32,509 bases of DNA from Gammaproteobacteria bacterium (GTDB taxonomy: Bacteria; Pseudomonadota; Gammaproteobacteria; Eutrophobiales; Eutrophobiaceae). Position 1 is the first letter of the stretch. The number at the start of each line of letters is the position of its first letter. The notes below the pieces were generated by a model. It was not told the DNA's origin. It did not search any database and worked only from the letters and a program-made list of their open reading frames with translations. The stretch spans positions 1 to 32,509 of the forward strand of contig JAURPG010000026.1 in NCBI GenBank assembly GCA_030835405.1, given 5' to 3'. The position numbers were made by a program, and so were the translations under genes. Positions 1 through 8,911 of the stretch are shown here, one piece after another.

Positions 1-100
1 CGTGATTAAATACGAAACACTACAGCAGAGGAGGAAGGAAAATTTAATACTATGTATAAATTAGTGAAACATGACTATAATATGTGAAAGTCTCTCTTAA

Positions 101-589
101 CTTTTAGACCTTTGTGTTCCATATCTTCTGACGACTTACAGTAGAATATATTTTAAACCCATTAACCCAGTAGACTTTATAAATGACATAAAAATTATAC
201 TAGAGCAATATGCAGCTAAGAATATCGGCATAAAAAATAATGAATTAGGAATAGATATTGATCGTCAGCTAATTTCACAACATATAAAAACTATCGGAAT
301 AGATGAATACAAATTAATTCTGAAATCATATGAAAAAGAGGTGCAAGGATATTTTTCCTCTTTAAATAACAATGATATTCAAGATATTAATTCAATTAAT
401 ATGATAATGCATAAATTCAAAGGTACATCATCTACAATTGGTGTTATAGGTCTAGAAAATATTTTAAAAGATGTGAATATAAATGATATTTTAGAAGATA
501 AAGAATTAATAAAATATCTAGAAAAATCACATAAAATATCAATTGGATTAATAGATGACTATTTAAAATCGTTCAGTAGGTATGGATAA
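101..589 (+). pseudogene. Remnant of a receiver-HPt protein, 5' end missing
   Basis: The frame is open from 101 (stop TAA at 98-100) to the TAA at 587-589. Its start reads like the end of a receiver domain: a strand-like VPYLLTT, then YFKPINP with the Lys-Pro pair typical of the last receiver strand. An HPt domain follows, with phospho-accepting His codon at 410-412 in the motif MHKFKGTSSTIG. The helix before that His needs sequence from about 254, so a start at GTG 341 would cut the HPt bundle; there is no in-frame ATG between 101 and 341. The receiver's aspartate part is absent and some residues between the TT and the KP motif seem deleted. Upstream, a purine-rich AGGAGGAAGG (29-38) precedes an ATG at 52 that stops after 11 codons in another frame. 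The TAA overlaps the next gene's ATG. I read it as the decayed 3' end of a hybrid kinase or receiver-HPt gene; a short functional HPt from a non-ATG start is the alternative. Confidence 0.6.
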
Positions 590-1041
590 TGATAGATCTT
601 GAAAATTTACCAGAAGACATAATTTCTGTATTAAAAACTAATTTTGGTGATGATTTTTCAGAAATCGATATACCACCCAGTGCTTTTAAAGCAATGGGTG
701 GTGTTTTGCATCAATACAATCTACTTGATAAAACACTTGTAATGAAATTTCCAGTAAAAGAATCATTTCTAAATCAATTTCGTAATATGAATGGGGGAAT
801 GATTGCTTCCGCAATTGATAATACTTTCGGGCCATTAAGTATGTTAGTTGCCCCTCCAAATTTCACTAGACAATTAGAAGTTAAATTTAGAAAACCAATT
901 CCAGAGTCGCTTGATTATATTTTTGTTCATGCTTATATAAATGAACGTAAAAAGAGACAATTAATTTTATCAGCAAAAGTTTCAGACGAGTTAGGTTGCG
1001 TATATGCAACCGCAAATGCAACACATTGGATCATATCTTAA
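589..1041 (+). CDS. PaaI-type hotdog thioesterase upstream of rpfF
   Basis: The protein has 150 residues, a normal length for a single hotdog-fold acyl-thioesterase of the PaaI/4HBT group. The central-helix motif NGGMIASAIDNTFGPL is at about 68-83, with Asp77 in the position of the usual catalytic acid and the preceding Gly-Gly for substrate carbonyl binding. The basic strand RQLEVKFRKPI follows at 94-104. Such enzymes hydrolyse acyl-CoA or acyl-ACP thioesters in the cytoplasm. The ATG overlaps the upstream stop as TAATG, with AGG at 578-580 as a likely ribosome site, suggesting translational coupling to the HPt remnant. It lies 110 bases before rpfF on the same strand, so a part in releasing or recycling the DSF acyl chain is a reasonable inference. 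The acyl substrate cannot be read from the sequence. It is very AT-rich, like rpfF. Confidence 0.85.
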   Translation: MIDLENLPEDIISVLKTNFGDDFSEIDIPPSAFKAMGGVLHQYNLLDKTLVMKFPVKESFLNQFRNMNGGMIASAIDNTFGPLSMLVAPPNFTRQLEVKFRKPIPESLDYIFVHAYINERKKRQLILSAKVSDELGCVYATANATHWIIS

Positions 1042-1151
1042 ATTGTAAACTGCCTAAGTTTGTATTAACTTATAGTGAATGATTTTATCGTTTTATTATA
1101 TTGGCGATAAAGTTGCGATGTTATTTAAATTAATATTTAGAGGAAGAGAAT

Positions 1152-2060
1152 ATGTTAGAAGCATACAAATTAACTCATGGTGCTCAAATAAGAAACTTAA
1201 AGCAAATATCATTAGATGTCGATCCCAATTATGGTTTAGTTTGGTTATATTTAAAACCAACGCCAAGGCCTTGTTTTAATCCAGACTTAGTTGAAGAAGT
1301 TAGAGCAGTTCAAAGAATACTAGAATCTAATAATGGTCAAATACCATGGAAAGGAAGCATGGTTAAAATTAATTATTTTGTCCTTGATTCATCTCTAGAA
1401 AATATATTTAGCATGGGAGGAGATCTAAGTTTATTTAGACAATTTATAACTAACAAAGATAAAGAAGGGTTTTTGAAATATATAAAAGTATGTATTGAAA
1501 CAATTCATGGTTTTCATGTTGGCTGTAGATTTCCTATTATAACTATTGCATGTGTCCGTGGCGACGCTATGGGTGGAGGGTTTGAAGTTGCATTGAGCTG
1601 CCAAGTATTAATAGCCGAGAAAAATATAGAAATGGGATTTCCTGAGGTTTTATTTAACTTATTTCCAGGCATGGGTGGTTATCACTTCTTATCTCAAAGA
1701 ATACCAGTAAAGCAAGTGGAAAGAATGATGTTAAATGGTAAGAAATATAAAACTAACGAATTATATGACATGGGTGTTATTGATAAATTGGCAGATGAAG
1801 GATGTGGGCGTGAGGCGGTATATTCATATATTAAAGAAGCAACAAAATATCGAAATTCATTCCATGCATTAAAAAATGTTAGAGAAAAAGTACATCCTAT
1901 AATTCATGATGAATTATTAGAGGTATGTAAACATTTTGTGGATGTTGCTATGAACATAAGCGAAAGAGATCTTAAGTTAATGAACAGGTTAGTTAAGGCT
2001 CAAGACAGGATGATGAATAGAAAAGTACTGCCTGAAATGAAAACAAAGCTAGCTAGCTGA
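1152..2060 (+). CDS. rpfF: DSF synthase RpfF (crotonase family)
   Basis: This 302-residue crotonase-fold protein matches the RpfF group closely. RpfF makes the cis-2-unsaturated fatty-acid signal DSF from 3-hydroxyacyl-ACP, acting as both dehydratase and thioesterase. Visible features are the oxyanion-hole segment SMGGDLSLF (87-95), the second glycine cluster GDAMGGGFE (137-145) and the segment MGFPEVLFNLFPGMGGY (161-177). The two catalytic glutamates are Glu145 and Glu165, spaced by 20 residues exactly as in Xanthomonas RpfF. The C-terminal helix LMNRLVKAQDR, also RpfF-like, is at 276-286. The ATG is preceded by a good ribosome site, AGAGGAAGAG at 1139-1148. The gene ends 5 bases before the convergent end of rpfC, so signal synthase and sensor sit back to back. 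Neighbours supply a thioesterase but no rpfB-like acyl-CoA ligase. The identification rests on motif spacing and context and is strong. Confidence 0.93.
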   Translation: MLEAYKLTHGAQIRNLKQISLDVDPNYGLVWLYLKPTPRPCFNPDLVEEVRAVQRILESNNGQIPWKGSMVKINYFVLDSSLENIFSMGGDLSLFRQFITNKDKEGFLKYIKVCIETIHGFHVGCRFPIITIACVRGDAMGGGFEVALSCQVLIAEKNIEMGFPEVLFNLFPGMGGYHFLSQRIPVKQVERMMLNGKKYKTNELYDMGVIDKLADEGCGREAVYSYIKEATKYRNSFHALKNVREKVHPIIHDELLEVCKHFVDVAMNISERDLKLMNRLVKAQDRMMNRKVLPEMKTKLAS

Positions 2061-2065
2061 TAATT

Positions 2066-4549
2066 TTATTTCAATGCGGAAATTTCAAGGTTATCTAAAT
2101 AGGAATTTAAGGCTAACGTGGTCTGGTCATGCAGATTCATTAATGTGCTGGATTGTATAGATATCGAGTCATAGTTGCTGCTGAGGGATTGTTTATAGAT
2201 ACTTGCTGCCATTTTACCTAATTCGGTAGCCCCTATACTTTGAGCACTACCTATCAAGGCATGTGCATATTCGGCAAGATCATGATAGTTGTTATTATTG
2301 TGAGATATAATAATAGAATTTATTAATTTCTTGCTATCAACAAGAAATACCTGGGTGAGCTCATGCATGAATTTCTTGCTATCTCCTAAAAGTGCGAGAT
2401 TATCTAATGTTGCAACATCAATAACATCAGCATCATCCTTGTGTTGTGGGTGTACAAGTTTCAGGCTGGGTTTATTAATGGAAGATCTAGTGTTCACTTC
2501 ATCTAAATTGATGAATGAGTAAGCTGTATCAAGAAGCTTCTCCCTTTTTATGGGCTTGGTCAAGTATGCATCTATACCTAAATCACAACATGCCTGTTCA
2601 GCATCTTTAGTTGCATCTGCAGTCAGCATGATTATTGGTATTTGTTTTGAACTCGGCGTCATAAATTTATATAGTTTTATGGTTTCAGGACCATCCATAT
2701 CAGGCATGTGCATATCTAAAATCATGATGTCGTAATCAGTTTCTTCAATAGCATCCAGTACAAGTTCCCCATTCTCGAACACATCGGCGCGGTGTCCAGC
2801 AGACTCTATATATCGCTTGATAACTTTTTGGTTGGTAATATTATCTTCACCAATAATAAATTTGAGTTGAACACCGTTTAATATTTCGGCATTCGCATCA
2901 GAACTATCTTTTTGCTTTAATCTTGCATTGTGAAAAGAAAATAAATGGTTTAGTTGTATATGGTTTACTGGGGATTCCAGGCTCGAGAAATACCAGGTGT
3001 TTGATATATCCTCACAGGCATCATCATTATTTAATAGAACTATGCATGTTTCAGATGAATCTGTGATCTCATGTATTTCATTTGCAAACGATTTGAAAGA
3101 TTCACCAACACCATTTTTATCAACGACAATAAAATCATATGCTTTATTATCGTTGAAGTCCTTAATGATTGATTTTGAATCAGGTGCTGTAATTGCATGC
3201 TCCCAGAAGATATCATTTTTGTCGAGAAAATTAACTAACCTGGAATGGTTATCACCATAGGTGGAAACTAGCAATACCTTTAAACCAGAAAAGCTCTGAT
3301 TATTATCAGGAGTATGGTTAAAATCCAATTCAAACCAAAAATTACTTCCATCACCTAATTGGCTTATTACTCCAATATCACCACCCATCATTTCAATAAT
3401 GTTTTTTGCAATTGATGCACCTAGCCCGGTTCCACCGTAGTTTGAAGAGATGCTCTCATCTGCTTGAATAAACTTGTCGAAAATGGTTGATTGAGCATCA
3501 TCTGCAATACCAATTCCAGTATCTTTGATTTCGTATCGTAAACGGGATTGTCGGCCTGTTGTATGTATACATTTTACAGATATATCAATATCACCAATTT
3601 TTGTGAATTTAATTGAATTTCCAATTAGGTTTATCAGTACCTGTTGTAAAAGCTTTTCATCGCCGATTATATTTCCGTTGATATCAGATGACATATGTAG
3701 CCTGCAGTTCAGTCCTGTCTTTTCTGCCAGGGGTTGCATAGTGTCAAGGGTTGTGGATAGTAGGGAGAATAAACTGAACTGGTTATGTCTAATTTCAGCC
3801 TTTCCTGTTTCGATCTTGGAAATATCAAGGATGTCATCAATTAAATTCAGGAGTGCTTTAGCAGATGATTGTATGGTCTTGACATAGTCATTTTGCTGTT
3901 TATCAAGTGACGTGGTTTCAAGAAGGTCACTCATTCCAATGACGCCATTTAGAGGTGTGCGAATTTCATGACTCATATTCGCCAAAAAAGATGATTTAGC
4001 ATTATTTGCGCTCTTAGCATTTTCAACTGCAGACTCTAATCTTTTTTGTAAAACGCCTATATAAACTGGGAGGACTATCATCGCAAGTAATATGGCAAAA
4101 CTTGCATAAATATGTTCATTCCAAAAAGGACTAATATTAATTACTAATAAGAATCCAAAAATTGTAAATAAAGTATTTATGAATAAATACTTAGTACCAA
4201 AGCGCAGGCCATTACCAAGTATTATCCAGAAATAAATTACAATATAAGGCGCACCTGCTTCATCTGATAAAGCAAGTGCATATGTAGCAGTACCAACGCC
4301 TGTTAATATAGCCAAGAAAAAACGAATTTCGTTGAATTCTCTTTTTATATATGACCAATAAATAAATAATAAACAGCATGGAATTGTTGCTAAAAAGATA
4401 TTGACTACCGCTTCATCTATTGAGTTATTTGCATTTTGAAATTTTGCATAAGCGATGCAAGACAAACAGGCAATTAATCTAATAATTGATTGTTCAAATT
4501 CCTTCCCTATACTTAGAATATTATTATTTAATTTGTGAAAACCATTCAT
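2066..4549 (-). CDS. rpfC: DSF sensor hybrid histidine kinase RpfC
   Basis: This 827-residue hybrid kinase has the RpfC layout. A short polar N-terminus ends in [10 protein letters not shown] (16-25), then about five or six membrane segments span 22-166. HisKA has phospho-His194 in [15 protein letters not shown], and HATPase_c has Asn311, the DTGIGI loop (343-348) and GGTGLG (372-377). A degenerate receiver-like stretch (about 421-545) comes next, then a true receiver with Asp612 in [12 protein letters not shown] and Lys665, and finally an HPt domain with His763 in [13 protein letters not shown]. It should sense DSF in the inner membrane and relay phosphate to RpfG. Xanthomonas RpfC is, from memory, about 100 residues shorter and has a single receiver, so the extra stretch is notable. 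The HPt motif has Ile766 where Lys is usual (H-x-L-K-G). The start is 10 bases after rpfG, without a clear ribosome site, so coupling to rpfG is likely. It converges with rpfF. Confidence 0.92.
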
Positions 4550-4559
4550 AGTAAATAAC

Positions 4560-5630
4560 TTAAAATTTTTCTTTAGTATTGAGAGAGTCGATATTTTTGA
4601 TTAATGCTATTACACACTCTTTATCAAAAGACTTATCTATCTCATCCTTAATAATTCTTATTGCTTCTTCAGTTGAGTTTAGCGGCCTATGATTTCTTTT
4701 GCTGGTCATTGCATTAAATGCGTCTGCTACTGATGCAATCCTGGCTTCAATTGGAATTTGATTGCCTTTTAGTTTGTTAGGGTAGCCTGTGCCATCTATT
4801 TTTTCATGATGATTTAGTGCAATATTTGCAGCAAGATCTAATACTGGAGAATTTCCTAGTTTTAGTAATTCATATCCGTAGGTTGTATGTTGTTTGACCA
4901 TTTCGAATTCGTCTTTTGACAATTCGCCAGATTTTAATAACAGATATGAGGGTAGTTTAACCTCACCAATATCGTGAAGTGGCGCGGCTATTTCTATATC
5001 ATTGCAAAACTTTTGATTCATCCCCATTTCTTTGGCAATTAGCATTGATATCATGCCCATTCTCAGTTGACTGAAACCTTCATGATCGCCCTTTATATCA
5101 ATTAGTTTGTTGATAATTGAAAGGGCACCTTTTTCTCGCTGATGAATGGTCTCATTTGAATTGAAGACAACCTTTTCCAGTGTTTCGGCACGTTCCTTGA
5201 TGATTTTTTGTTGTCTGCGTAATGTGAGTAGATTGCGGCACCTGACTTTACATTCATAATGGTCAATGGGTTTAGTCAAAAAATCTGTAGCGCCGGCTCC
5301 CAATGCTTCGTACATCACAGATTTATCATCAATTATTGTGAATACAATTATTGGCACATCCATGCATTCCGGGATGTTTCTAACCCGTTGTGTGAATTCA
5401 ACGCCATTCATCTTTGGCATTCTGTAGTCAACAACAATCAAGTCAGGTGGTGAATGGCATGTAGCTTCAAGGGCATCTTGAGGTGCGTTAAATGCAGACA
5501 CCTTAATATTATCACCAATACCCTTGATGATATTTTTCATAATGACCCGGCTGGTCAATTGATCATCTACAACATAAACATTAGCCGTAATTGGAAAATT
5601 CTTAGCATCTTTAAATAATACTGTAGCCAT
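4560..5630 (-). CDS. rpfG: Response regulator RpfG, receiver plus HD-GYP
   Basis: The protein has 356 residues. The receiver (about 16-135) has acidic pair Asp22-Asp23, phospho-Asp68 in [12 protein letters not shown] and Lys120 in TKPID. A coiled linker (about 136-165) leads to an HD-GYP domain, the class that hydrolyses cyclic-di-GMP. The domain keeps His219-Asp220 in [11 protein letters not shown], His248, His274-His275, the GYP loop ([11 protein letters not shown], 274-284) and Asp303 in [10 protein letters not shown]. Two usual early ligands seem changed: aligning on Arg190-Met191, the Glu and His of the E-x-G-x-H motif become His183 and Ser187. HDxGK also reads HDIGE, with Glu223 for Lys. 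RpfG is the known output partner of RpfC, and here it is the first gene of an rpfG-rpfC pair. The 82-base leader is AT-rich and includes a weak perfect inverted repeat at 5666-5683. The Rpf assignment is strong; catalytic activity is less certain. Confidence 0.9.
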
Positions 5631-5712
5631 AATATATATTTTTTATCATCCATGAGCCTTTTAGAATTATTATTTTTAATAATAGTAGCATATAGTAAAG
5701 AATGCAGTCTTT

Positions 5713-6258
5713 TTATTCCCGTTTTAAAAGAACATATACTGCACCTGTTCCACCATCAGATACAGGGCATGAACAATAAGCTAATACATGAGTATTTTCC
5801 TGTAACCATACAGGGATATACTGTTTGATCACAGGCGTTGCGTGTTGTGAACCATAGCCTTTCCCATGAATAATCCTCACACAACCCGGAGCATTAAATT
5901 GATTGATTTGACTAAAAAAAAGATCAAGGGATACTTTTGCTTGATGAATTGTATGACCATGTAGATCCAGTTCAGCAATTACTGGTACTTGTCCTTTTTT
6001 GAGTCTTTTAAATATTCTGTTTTGAATGCCATCGCGTTTGAACATCAGGATATCAGTTGGCCCTATCGTAGATGCATTTTCCGGGAGTATGGCATCGAAA
6101 TATTGGTTAAGCCTGTTTTCGGGTAGATCATTTGATGCCGAATATTTTTTCTTTTTCCTTGGCTTTGACATCAGGACCTTGTCCTGTGGAATGGGTTGCA
6201 CTTTACCAACAGAACTTCTGAACAATTCTATATCATCTTTATGTATTCGCTGTTTCAT
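5713..6258 (-). CDS. Smr-domain protein, SmrA/YdaL-like
   Basis: This 181-residue soluble protein has a basic N-terminal part (RKKKKY near 34-39) and a C-terminal Smr domain from about residue 90. The Smr hallmarks are LDLHGHTIHQAK, then IIHGKGYGS, and finally GGTGAVYVLLKR. The N-terminal pattern of a short acidic helix followed by VQPI, with FKRDGIQ in the middle, resembles the Escherichia YdaL (SmrA) family. Smr domains bind and nick nucleic acids; SmrB in Escherichia cleaves mRNA at collided ribosomes, and SmrA's role is less clear. The intact LDLHG motif argues for a functional nuclease here. It lies between msrQ (53-base gap) and rpfG (82-base gap) on the same strand and may be cotranscribed with either. 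I leave the symbol blank because orthology to SmrA is likely but not proven. Confidence 0.85.
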   Translation of the reverse strand: MKQRIHKDDIELFRSSVGKVQPIPQDKVLMSKPRKKKKYSASNDLPENRLNQYFDAILPENASTIGPTDILMFKRDGIQNRIFKRLKKGQVPVIAELDLHGHTIHQAKVSLDLFFSQINQFNAPGCVRIIHGKGYGSQHATPVIKQYIPVWLQENTHVLAYCSCPVSDGGTGAVYVLLKRE

Positions 6259-6311
6259 GTGCTACCCAATTGATGAACCAGGTTATAGGGTAACTAAATA
6301 TGATTAAATTT

Positions 6312-6923
6312 TCAGTGAGAAGACGGCTGAATTTCCGAAATAAAGAATTTTTTCACATTTTTTGCCCATGGAAGGCGCAATGTCATTAATACTGAAAATA
6401 TCAGTGCAAATGTAATTGGCAGGGTGGTATCGGCTTTAACCAACCATAAATAGTGAAGAATAGCCAGTGTGGTGATCACGTAGATCAATTTGTGTAAACG
6501 TTGCCAGTTACTTCCGAGGCGCGATATCATTTTTTTTGTTGATGTAACCGCAAGAGGTATGAGCAAGACGAATGCCGTAAAACCTACTGTGATATATGGC
6601 CTGTCAATGATATCTTCAATAATGGCATTAAAATCAAAGTACTGATCTAGTACAAAGTAGGTAAGAAAATGCAGGCAGGCATAAAAAAAAGCAAATAGTC
6701 CAAGCATTCTTCTAAAACATGTAAAGATGAGCTTCCCCGTCAAATTCCTCAGAGGGGTTATTGAAAGAGTAATTAATAAAAAATAGAGGGTCCAGTCACC
6801 TGTGTAATGGGTAATATACTCAATCGGATTGGCAGTTAGATTATCCCTAAAACCATTGTAGATCAGAACACCAAAGGGTATTAAAGAAACGCTGAATAAA
6901 AGCGGTTTATATAGTTTCTGCAT
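6312..6923 (-). CDS. msrQ: MsrQ, heme-binding membrane subunit of methionine sulfoxide reductase
   Basis: This 203-residue multi-pass protein has about six hydrophobic segments and belongs to the ferric-reductase-like MsrQ (YedZ) family. It takes electrons from the quinone pool or a flavoreductase and passes them to periplasmic MsrP. Candidate heme ligands are His85 in the helix FFYACLHFLTYF and His144 and His157 in the segment LHKLIYVITTLAILHYLW. The motifs GDWTLYFLLITLSITPLR (42-59) and RRMLGL (71-76) are standard for the family. The gene starts 10 bases after msrP ends on the same strand, so the two are surely one operon. Nothing appears damaged. Confidence 0.93.
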   Translation of the reverse strand: MQKLYKPLLFSVSLIPFGVLIYNGFRDNLTANPIEYITHYTGDWTLYFLLITLSITPLRNLTGKLIFTCFRRMLGLFAFFYACLHFLTYFVLDQYFDFNAIIEDIIDRPYITVGFTAFVLLIPLAVTSTKKMISRLGSNWQRLHKLIYVITTLAILHYLWLVKADTTLPITFALIFSVLMTLRLPWAKNVKKFFISEIQPSSH

Positions 6924-6933
6924 AAATGATAGA

Positions 6934-7875
6934 TCAGTGATATTTAAGCAGATTCATCCCCTCGTACATGGAAGCGACCTGGTCGGCATACCCATTAAAC
7001 ATCAGTGTATCCCTCTTTAAAAATTCACCAATCCTGCGTTCTTTCTTTTGACTCCATCGTGGGTGGTTTCTATTTGGATTAACATTAGAATAGAAACCAT
7101 ATTCTTTGGGTGCAGAATCATTCCAGGAAGTACGAGGTTCATCTTCAACAAAACTTATTTTCACTATAGACTTGATGCTTTTATATCCGTATTTCCAGGG
7201 TACTACCAGGCGTATTGGTGCGCCACTTTGATTTAATAACTCTTCACCGTATATTCCCACGGCAAGAATGGTTAAAGGATTCATCGCTTCATCTATCCTA
7301 AGTCCTTCCCTGTATGGCCACTGAAGAACACGTGAACGTTGACCAGGCATTTCATCTGGCCTGAACACGGTAGTGAATGCCACATATTTTGCATTTGAGG
7401 AGGGTTCAAAGCGTTTTAAAACATTGCCAAGCGGAATACCAACCCACGGTACCACCATAGACCAGGCTTCAACGCAGCGGAGCCTGTAAATTCTTTCTTC
7501 CAGGCGATGAGGCTTAATTAAATCTTCCAGACCGATTTCTCCTGGCTTGTTACATTCACCATCAACCGTTATTGACCAGGGTTTAGGATTAAACCCCCCG
7601 GAATATTTCACCGGGTCTTCTTTTGCAGTGCCAAATTCATAGAAATTATTGTAAGTGGTAATATCTTCGAAATCTGTGAGCTCTTCTTCCAGTGTGGAAT
7701 AGCGGCTTTTGCGGATATCATTCAGTGTCGCGGCATTGGTATTTCCAGCGAGTAAGAGTCCAGAACCGACTATCCCGGTATTAATGGAGGTTTTCAAAAA
7801 TTTTCTGCGTGATAAATAGGTCGATTTGCTGGTGATCTCTGAAGATTTAATATCAGATGGTGTTTTTATAAGCAT
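6934..7875 (-). CDS. msrP: MsrP, molybdopterin methionine sulfoxide reductase (copy 1)
   Basis: This 313-residue protein is a periplasmic catalytic subunit of the MsrPQ system, which reduces methionine sulfoxide in oxidised envelope proteins. The N-terminus carries a twin-arginine signal, [10 protein letters not shown] (Arg23-Arg24), followed by a hydrophobic stretch ending near AGNTNA. The sulfite-oxidase-type core has the molybdenum-ligand Cys134 in [19 protein letters not shown], preceded by HRLEERIY. The segment [20 protein letters not shown] is further along, and the C-terminus [17 protein letters not shown] is typical. It sits directly upstream of msrQ (10 bases) and 79 bases downstream of a second msrP copy, with which it shares most of its sequence including both ends. 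Substrate and partner are inferred from the family. Confidence 0.93.
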
Positions 7876-7954
7876 GCCTGGTTACCTTTATGTATTACTT
7901 GTAGTTTGATTCAGTTAAATAATAAAGTAAGTTACATTAATAAAACCTATCAGG

Positions 7955-8911
7955 TTAATATAATTTTTCTAAATCCATTCCGGAATATAAAGAAGCAACC
8001 TGATCAGCATACCCATTAAACATAAGAGTGTCCTGTTTAAAAAATTTACCAATCCGGCGTTCCCTTGCCTGGCTCCATCGCGGGTGTCTGACCTGGGGGT
8101 TAACATTGGCATAAAAACCAAATTCATCCGGGGCAAATTTATTGAATGTATTTGGTGGCATATCCCTGACAAAATTTATATTTACAATAGATTTGATACT
8201 TTTAAATCCGTATTTCCAGGGCACTACTAACCGAATCGGGGCACCATTCTGATTCAGTAATTCTTCTCCATATAGTCCCGTGGCAAAAATTGTTAGTGGA
8301 TGCATGGCCTCGTCAATTCTAAGGCCTTCAACAAATGGAAATTCATACGCTACCTTGCCGATCCCTGGCATCACATCAGGTTGATAGGGTGCTGTAAATG
8401 CAACATATTTTGCATTGGAATTGGGATTAAATTTCTTGAGAATGTCGGAAAGGGGGATTCCAATCCATGGTATGACCATAGACCATGCCTCAACACATCT
8501 TAACCGATAGATACGTTCCTCCAGTTGATGGGGATTGATGATATCTTCCAGGTCATACTCACCAGGATTATCGCATTCACCTTCAACTTTTATTTTCCAC
8601 GGACTGGTTTGAAAATCACCTGAATAGGCAGCCGGGTCTTCCTTATCCAGGCCAAACTCCGCAAAGTTGTTATAACTTATAATGGATGAATATTTGGTGA
8701 GTTCTTCATCAGTGGAAAAGTCTGTGTTTTTGATGAAATTTTCAATTTTTTCTGCAGCCAGAACCTTACCGCTTTTTAACAGGGAAGCATGTAAAATATA
8801 TAATGATAAAATCTTGCTGCTGGACAATGATATAAATTTTCGACGAGACAGGTAATCCGCTTTGGACGTAATCTCAGATGGTTTTATATCTCTAGCTTGT
8901 TTTATAAGCAT
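7955..8911 (-). CDS. MsrP paralog (tandem copy 2)
   Basis: This 318-residue protein is plainly a paralog of the next gene, MsrP copy 1. The opening MLIKQARDIKPSEITSK differs by few residues from copy 1. It has a twin-arginine signal LSRRKFISLS (Arg23-Arg24), with a less glycine-rich hydrophobic region ending near VLAAEK. The molybdopterin Cys139 lies in [19 protein letters not shown], and [20 protein letters not shown] and [17 protein letters not shown] are conserved. All visible catalytic landmarks are intact, so it should be an active oxidoreductase. Differences cluster between about residues 28 and 75 and in the segment 160-185. It is transcribed first in the msrP2-msrP1-msrQ order and probably shares MsrQ. 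Whether it has a different substrate preference cannot be judged. A 44-base gap separates it from the methyltransferase gene upstream. Confidence 0.9.
   Translation of the reverse strand: MLIKQARDIKPSEITSKADYLSRRKFISLSSSKILSLYILHASLLKSGKVLAAEKIENFIKNTDFSTDEELTKYSSIISYNNFAEFGLDKEDPAAYSGDFQTSPWKIKVEGECDNPGEYDLEDIINPHQLEERIYRLRCVEAWSMVIPWIGIPLSDILKKFNPNSNAKYVAFTAPYQPDVMPGIGKVAYEFPFVEGLRIDEAMHPLTIFATGLYGEELLNQNGAPIRLVVPWKYGFKSIKSIVNINFVRDMPPNTFNKFAPDEFGFYANVNPQVRHPRWSQARERRIGKFFKQDTLMFNGYADQVASLYSGMDLEKLY

Follow-up and report, generated by a model that had tools for sequence, protein, structure and literature searches.

Upstream of the DSF synthase gene (rpfF) of the gammaproteobacterium analyzed here, on the same strand, lies a gene for a predicted hotdog-fold thioesterase. 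The pairing is conserved beyond this genome and constitutes a clade-limited variant of the rpf locus. We consider it about an even call that this acyl-thioester hydrolase was inserted once between ispF and rpfF and has been kept as an accessory of the DSF locus. The observed basis of this reading consists of the position of the gene, its restriction to one clade, the purifying selection seen between the two most similar genomes, and the intact Asn and Asp residues; as for the substrate, the partner and the effect on DSF, these we infer.

Layout of the locus and its upstream region

The window, that is, the whole stretch of DNA analyzed (32,509 nucleotides), is a complete contig, C5 of genome G000, from start to end. 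Its left part contains the following features:

1-140, + strand: mobile-element-like repeat end, also found at other contig ends of the genome
141-589, + strand: remaining 3' part of another hybrid sensor kinase gene, the second at this locus (receiver tail and Hpt-like domain)
589-1041, + strand: predicted PaaI/THEM-type hotdog thioesterase, 150 aa, with Asn62 and Asp77 in the catalytic positions and Asn68 where the relatives have Gln
1042-1151, + strand: 110-base spacer, with a purine-rich ribosome-binding site at about 1139-1148, before rpfF
1152-2060, + strand: RpfF-like DSF synthase (crotonase fold), 302 aa, with Glu145/Glu165, Gly90 and Gly142 conserved
2066-4549, - strand: RpfC-like hybrid sensor kinase, convergent with rpfF
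4560-5630, - strand: RpfG-like receiver-HD-GYP response regulator

The original prediction, made from the letters of the DNA, described a hotdog gene with Asp77 in the catalytic slot that precedes rpfF by 110 bases, shares its strand and is similarly AT-rich, and this description is accurate: rpfF is intact, 110 bases separate the two ORFs, and the GC content is 0.316 for the hotdog gene and 0.325 for rpfF, against a window mean of 0.417. The linked RpfC/RpfG-like two-component genes (window 2066-5630) are present as well. As in the xanthomonad rpf locus (rpfB-rpfF-rpfC-rpfG), rpfF is thus accompanied by a convergent gene for an rpfC-like kinase and by one for an rpfG-like HD-GYP regulator. 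Unlike the xanthomonad locus, no rpfB-like gene was recognized by eye among the ORFs of window 1-8911; in the order to which the window belongs, the locus follows ispF, and it includes the hotdog gene as well as, in the genus of the window, another RpfC-like kinase gene or what is left of it. Farther downstream, at 6934-8911, there are two adjacent similar genes, of about 315 aa each, that by eye look like MsrP-type oxidoreductases.

The repeated mobile-element-like end is probably the reason why the contig starts here and why the second kinase gene is truncated. Window 1-106 has five matches at contig ends in its own genome, the window itself counted and one of the matches being partial; the other repeat-bearing contigs are C80, C111, C123 and C53. 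Three of the copies outside the window, compared in more detail, agree as far as base 140 and diverge just beyond it. A 12-base inverted match (window 88-99) ties the left edge to the end of contig C68, which contains ispF and then a kinase-like start with an in-frame stop (the kinase match is weak, E 3e-4). These observations fit a mobile element that broke both the second kinase gene and the assembly, though C68 and C5 need not be neighbors.

The start codon of the hotdog gene overlaps the stop of the upstream frame (TAATG, 587-591), which suggests coupling to the preceding gene rather than to rpfF. This upstream frame is the 3' end of the second hybrid kinase gene, the likely full counterpart of which, in G001, encodes 782 aa and lies 24 bases upstream of the hotdog gene, its product sharing 29% identity with RpfC across 723 residues; the remnant in the window is too short and diverged for a convincing alignment, so that the correspondence rests on position and domain type. 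In G001, this second full-length RpfC-like hybrid kinase (L044:10335-12680, - strand) is encoded between ispF and the hotdog gene and is possibly a second DSF sensor.

A shared operon of the hotdog gene and rpfF is not apparent from the spacer between them (1042-1151): we found no terminator-like site in it and promoter-like sites at no more than the chance level, and nothing sets its predicted folding apart (z -0.82). The corresponding spacer of G021 and G031 carries, besides a promoter-like block, the inverted repeat TACCC-N4-GGGTA, which is conserved, and an inverted repeat of the same kind precedes rpfF in G014, G015 and G026, all without the hotdog gene. Among the 32 loci scanned, TACCC-N4-GGGTA is present in five (L042, L043, L045, L046 and L051), 66-241 bases before rpfF, and is not seen in G000 or G001. 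Because hotdog-less relatives share the repeat, rpfF probably has its own regulatory region, with a promoter, in the G021/G031 genus, and the location of this conserved element between the two genes indicates that the hotdog gene was inserted on the ispF side there.

The predicted thioesterase and the RpfF-like synthase

Judging from sequence comparison and a structure model, the hotdog gene probably encodes a PaaI/THEM-type acyl-thioester hydrolase. The Pfam 4HBT score of the window protein is just under the cut-off (19.1 vs 20.6 bits), that of the G031 ortholog is above it (25.7 bits), and a Pfam scan of the G001 ortholog gave no match at E 0.01. The NCBIfam hotdog domain scores 17.9 bits, with a sub-threshold match also to TIGR00369/PaaD, and the score for the PaaI equivalog TIGR02286 (hydroxyphenylacetyl-CoA thioesterase), 14.6 bits, is far below the cut-off of 118.9. 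A phmmer search of the window protein retrieved human THEM4 and 2pim, and the predicted structure (pLDDT 87.5, pTM 0.82) matches PaaI of E. coli and Thermus, THEM2, THEM4, and YdiI-type thioesterases with Z 16-20. The likeness to the PaaI/THEM4/THEM2-type enzymes encompasses the fold, the single 150-aa domain, and the spacing of the catalytic positions, with the Asp 7 residues past the GG turn and the Asn 15 residues before the Asp; the differences are an identity of only 9-23% to the solved members listed and a QGG motif (NGG in the window copy) in place of HGG. Asp77, which falls in the helix that follows the GG turn, aligns with the corresponding residue in 2pim and THEM4, and neither it nor Asn62 varies in any of the 10 relatives compared. 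The presumed catalytic roles of these two positions are those of the PaaI, THEM2 and YdiI literature; the titles of the matched structures include the PA1618 mutants Q49A and E64A, likewise 15 residues apart.

On sequence grounds, we regard the 302-aa protein as an RpfF-like synthase and do not claim strict NF053515 equivalog identity: the score with this NCBI RpfF equivalog is 221.4 bits against a strict cut-off of 550, the wider PRK08788 crotonase model gives 324 bits, over its cut-off of 177, and the best structure match is X. campestris RpfF (3m6m, E 2.1e-54). According to PMC9040811, Xcc RpfF has the catalytic Glu pair E141/E161 and the thioesterase Gly residues G86/G138; with the residue offset taken from the alignment to 3m6m, these correspond to Glu145/Glu165 and Gly90/Gly142 in the window protein, and all four residues are invariant in 19 of 19 RpfFs aligned. 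The supposition that RpfF has thioesterase activity of its own is in line with the retention of these glycines. RpfF dehydrates 3-hydroxyacyl-ACP and also releases the acid, and its leakage of free fatty acids is counteracted in xanthomonads by RpfB (PMC4504480, PMC4542539). As a thioesterase, RpfF is of broad specificity. Because the window RpfF retains both its thioesterase and its dehydratase residues, it would have no need to depend on a helper, and the hotdog protein should not be required for RpfF catalysis.

Distribution and evolution of the hotdog-rpfF pair

We searched 53 genomes of the window's family, which make up the entire order sampled. The hotdog gene is present in four of these (G000, G001, G021 and G031, representing two genera), in each case as the immediate upstream neighbor of rpfF and in the same orientation; the distance between the two genes is 110 (G000), 136 (G001), 284 (G031) and 297 bases (G021). 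A match to rpfF at E 1e-30 or better was found in 25 of the 53 genomes (the G007 copy is partial, at a contig end), and none of the 28 genomes without such a match contains the hotdog gene. The gene is missing from 22 of the 26 rpfF loci in the order, counting the window and two loci in G028. Most often in the order, the genes run eno-ftsB-ispD-ispF-rpfF and face a convergent rpfC (IspD and IspF were confirmed with Pfam, eno and ftsB were assigned by reading the sequences), and the hotdog gene, where present, is wedged between ispF and rpfF. Surveyed in this way, the rpfF neighborhoods show the adjacency in four genomes of the order and not in the window's genome alone; being found in all four hotdog-bearing genomes, the adjacency exceeds chance, though it traces to one gain.

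In a phylogenetic tree of 29 RpfFs, short or split sequences excluded, the four hotdog-linked RpfFs form one clade (support 100/98), so that one gain suffices. The adjacency has been kept while these RpfFs diverged to about 60% identity, and the hotdog proteins, 43-50% identical between the genera, are still intact. Against the accessory reading, the adjacency is effectively one evolutionary event. The losses in the window's genus do not alter this count: G002, G003 and G004 lack both genes; G002 retains an intact rpfG and a truncated rpfC, G003 only a piece of rpfG, and G004 nothing. These co-losses are whole-locus deletions and therefore not independent evidence. With rpfF gone, G002 (L164) seems to have lost signal synthesis and kept the response regulator.

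Between G021 and G031, the most closely related pair, the hotdog gene has a dN/dS of 0.07 and rpfF one of 0.05, and the hotdog gene is under strong purifying selection in this pair. For G000/G001, the values are 0.37 and 0.09 at near-saturated dS, so constraint on the hotdog gene in the window's own genus may be weaker; all other pairs are saturated. The value of 0.37 would agree with decay of the hotdog gene in the window genome, to the point of no longer working, after disruption of the upstream kinase gene. The mobile-element end and kinase remnant lie directly upstream, the window copy alone among the aligned sequences (10 relatives) is changed at the otherwise near-invariant P63, G65 and Q68, and it scores 61 bits against outside PaaI proteins, compared with 82-84 bits for its orthologs. 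Nevertheless, the open frame is full-length, Asn62 and Asp77 are kept, and the predicted fold is confident, and we view decay as very improbable.

The AT-richness of the hotdog gene does not count as evidence of a foreign origin: the GC contents of the hotdog gene and rpfF agree in each of the four linked genomes (0.32/0.33, 0.35/0.36, 0.52/0.50 and 0.60/0.58). Other loci show a different addition: in L055, a membrane fatty-acid desaturase gene (PF00487; 9615-10697) is the next gene after rpfF and has the same orientation. It belongs to a cluster of nine members, the others being in L056-L061, L064 and L066, and one member was scanned with Pfam. This rpfF-linked desaturase could produce doubly unsaturated DSF-type signals.

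With HMMs built from the subfamily and from PaaI relatives, we surveyed the neighborhoods of rpfF at 92 loci, of which 26 belong to the order and 66 to other parts of the class, some of the regions ending at contig ends and ORFs being taken from 60 aa. This survey yielded no pairs other than the known four, 88 of the 92 loci being without the gene, and none of the 66 loci elsewhere in the class (from 65 of the 66 non-order rpfF genomes, G260 being left out) has a hotdog gene of this kind near rpfF. The sensitivity of the survey was checked with an HMM built on six PaaI proteins from outside, which recovers all four linked hotdog proteins and 10 of 10 subfamily members; the YbgC-type HMM, built from three members only, is a weak test. 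In a Pfam scan of 115 proteins (the window hotdog protein and selected small same-strand ORFs near rpfF, mainly outside the order, several ORFs overlapping others being left out), 4HBT does not occur again in the 25 families listed out of 33.

The hotdog family itself does not need DSF. Searched with the hotdog profile, the class sample of 369 genomes gives nine with a match of E 1e-6 or better, including two from the family of the window, and the phylum sample of 398 genomes gives three at 1e-15 or better, including the genome of the window itself. Strong outside hotdogs are encoded in G149, G150, G418, G419 and G539, which show no match to rpfF at 1e-20, and in G684, which does possess rpfF but on another contig. 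These unlinked hotdogs are 44-48% identical, as close as the linked ones, and reside in unrelated contexts, with genes for an EF-hand protein, a TPR protein and a glucose/sorbosone dehydrogenase as neighbors and no common theme; in a tree of the hotdogs, linked and unlinked members are intermingled, the sequences being too short to resolve. Given the 0/66 loci elsewhere in the class and the hotdogs in rpfF-less genomes, DSF loci do not generally include the gene. A general rpfF partner is likewise ruled out, with only four pairs among the 92 loci. The predicted thioesterase-rpfF link thus stands in its narrow form, as conserved in four genomes of two genera, and does not extend past one clade, being absent from the other 22 of 26 loci in the order and from 66 of 66 sampled elsewhere in the class.

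Among plasmids, Leptospira and Legionella yielded distant relatives of PaaI; a single such region, from Leptospira kobayashii, was inspected and has no annotated rpfF, and the plasmid rpfF regions in 5 of 16 records inspected have no annotated thioesterase. An E. coli plasmid (L078, NZ_CP060058.1) encodes a distant RpfF-like crotonase, 28% identical, next to ABC-transporter and lipoprotein-sorting genes.

A dedicated biosynthetic partner of RpfF, as initially suggested, would release the cis-2-enoyl chain from ACP or set the chain length; removal of the saturated free acids that RpfF forms as by-products was also put forward at first as something such a partner may do. The conserved same-strand adjacency, the predicted thioesterase fold and the catalytic residues speak for such a partner, and the linkage part of the idea has held up. 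What does not sit well with it is that RpfF retains Gly90/Gly142, the equivalents of G86/G138 (PMC9040811), and the Glu pair, that the great majority of rpfF loci do without the hotdog gene, that the subfamily occurs where rpfF is missing, and that rpfF in two of the linked genomes probably has a regulatory region of its own. We consider the role of a dedicated biosynthetic partner unlikely. In the literature searched, we found no description of an rpfF-hotdog thioesterase pair, in agreement with the original statement that no role for such a gene in DSF synthesis was known.

Possible roles around DSF

The strongest competing explanation is that the thioesterase gene next to ispF is a passenger: it would encode a general acyl-CoA housekeeping enzyme, acquired by horizontal transfer downstream of ispF and without a link to DSF. 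This interpretation, which we hold to be less probable but well worth considering, is compatible with the life of the subfamily elsewhere without rpfF, with the single gain, and with the arrangement in G021, where the hotdog gene starts 27 bases after ispF and the conserved pre-rpfF element lies downstream of it. It accounts less readily for the fact that, within the order, the gene is never found away from rpfF or in an rpfF-less genome, and for the persistence of the adjacency over large divergence. In G001, moreover, the hotdog gene is parted from ispF by the RpfC-like kinase gene, yet still adjoins rpfF.

The accessory reading starts with the insertion between ispF and rpfF in the ancestor of the small clade. 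The enzyme would then hydrolyze medium- or long-chain fatty-acyl thioesters, of CoA or ACP, coming from the DSF branch or returning to it, and so might adjust how much free acid is present, for instance by counteracting the re-esterification of DSF or by clearing stalled acyl thioesters. The result would be a shifted balance between free and thioester-bound acids around DSF. Since a PaaI/THEM-type enzyme would be expected to act on fatty-acyl thioesters, we favor an accessory of this kind. The second RpfC-like kinase gene inserted at the same place in the window's genus makes the other insertion at this site DSF-system-like. There is a parallel with the RpfB acyl-CoA ligase, another product of an rpfF-linked gene that acts on fatty acids around RpfF (PMC4504480, PMC4542539); unlike the ligase, which activates free acids, a thioesterase frees them, the opposite chemistry.

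More tentatively, and with somewhat less confidence than we have in the accessory role as such, we propose a lineage-specific DSF circuit in which the hotdog enzyme, coupled in one genus to the second RpfC-like sensor, controls the accumulation of DSF or related free fatty acids, opposing acyl-CoA ligases. If such a circuit exists, it would add to the signal pathway an extra tuning enzyme of a kind that has not been described for the known rpf loci. A clade that added a thioesterase would have, compared with the RpfB of xanthomonads, another way to balance DSF output and fatty-acid loss, and would offer a simple two-gene system in which to ask whether the release of DSF or its turnover is the controlled step.
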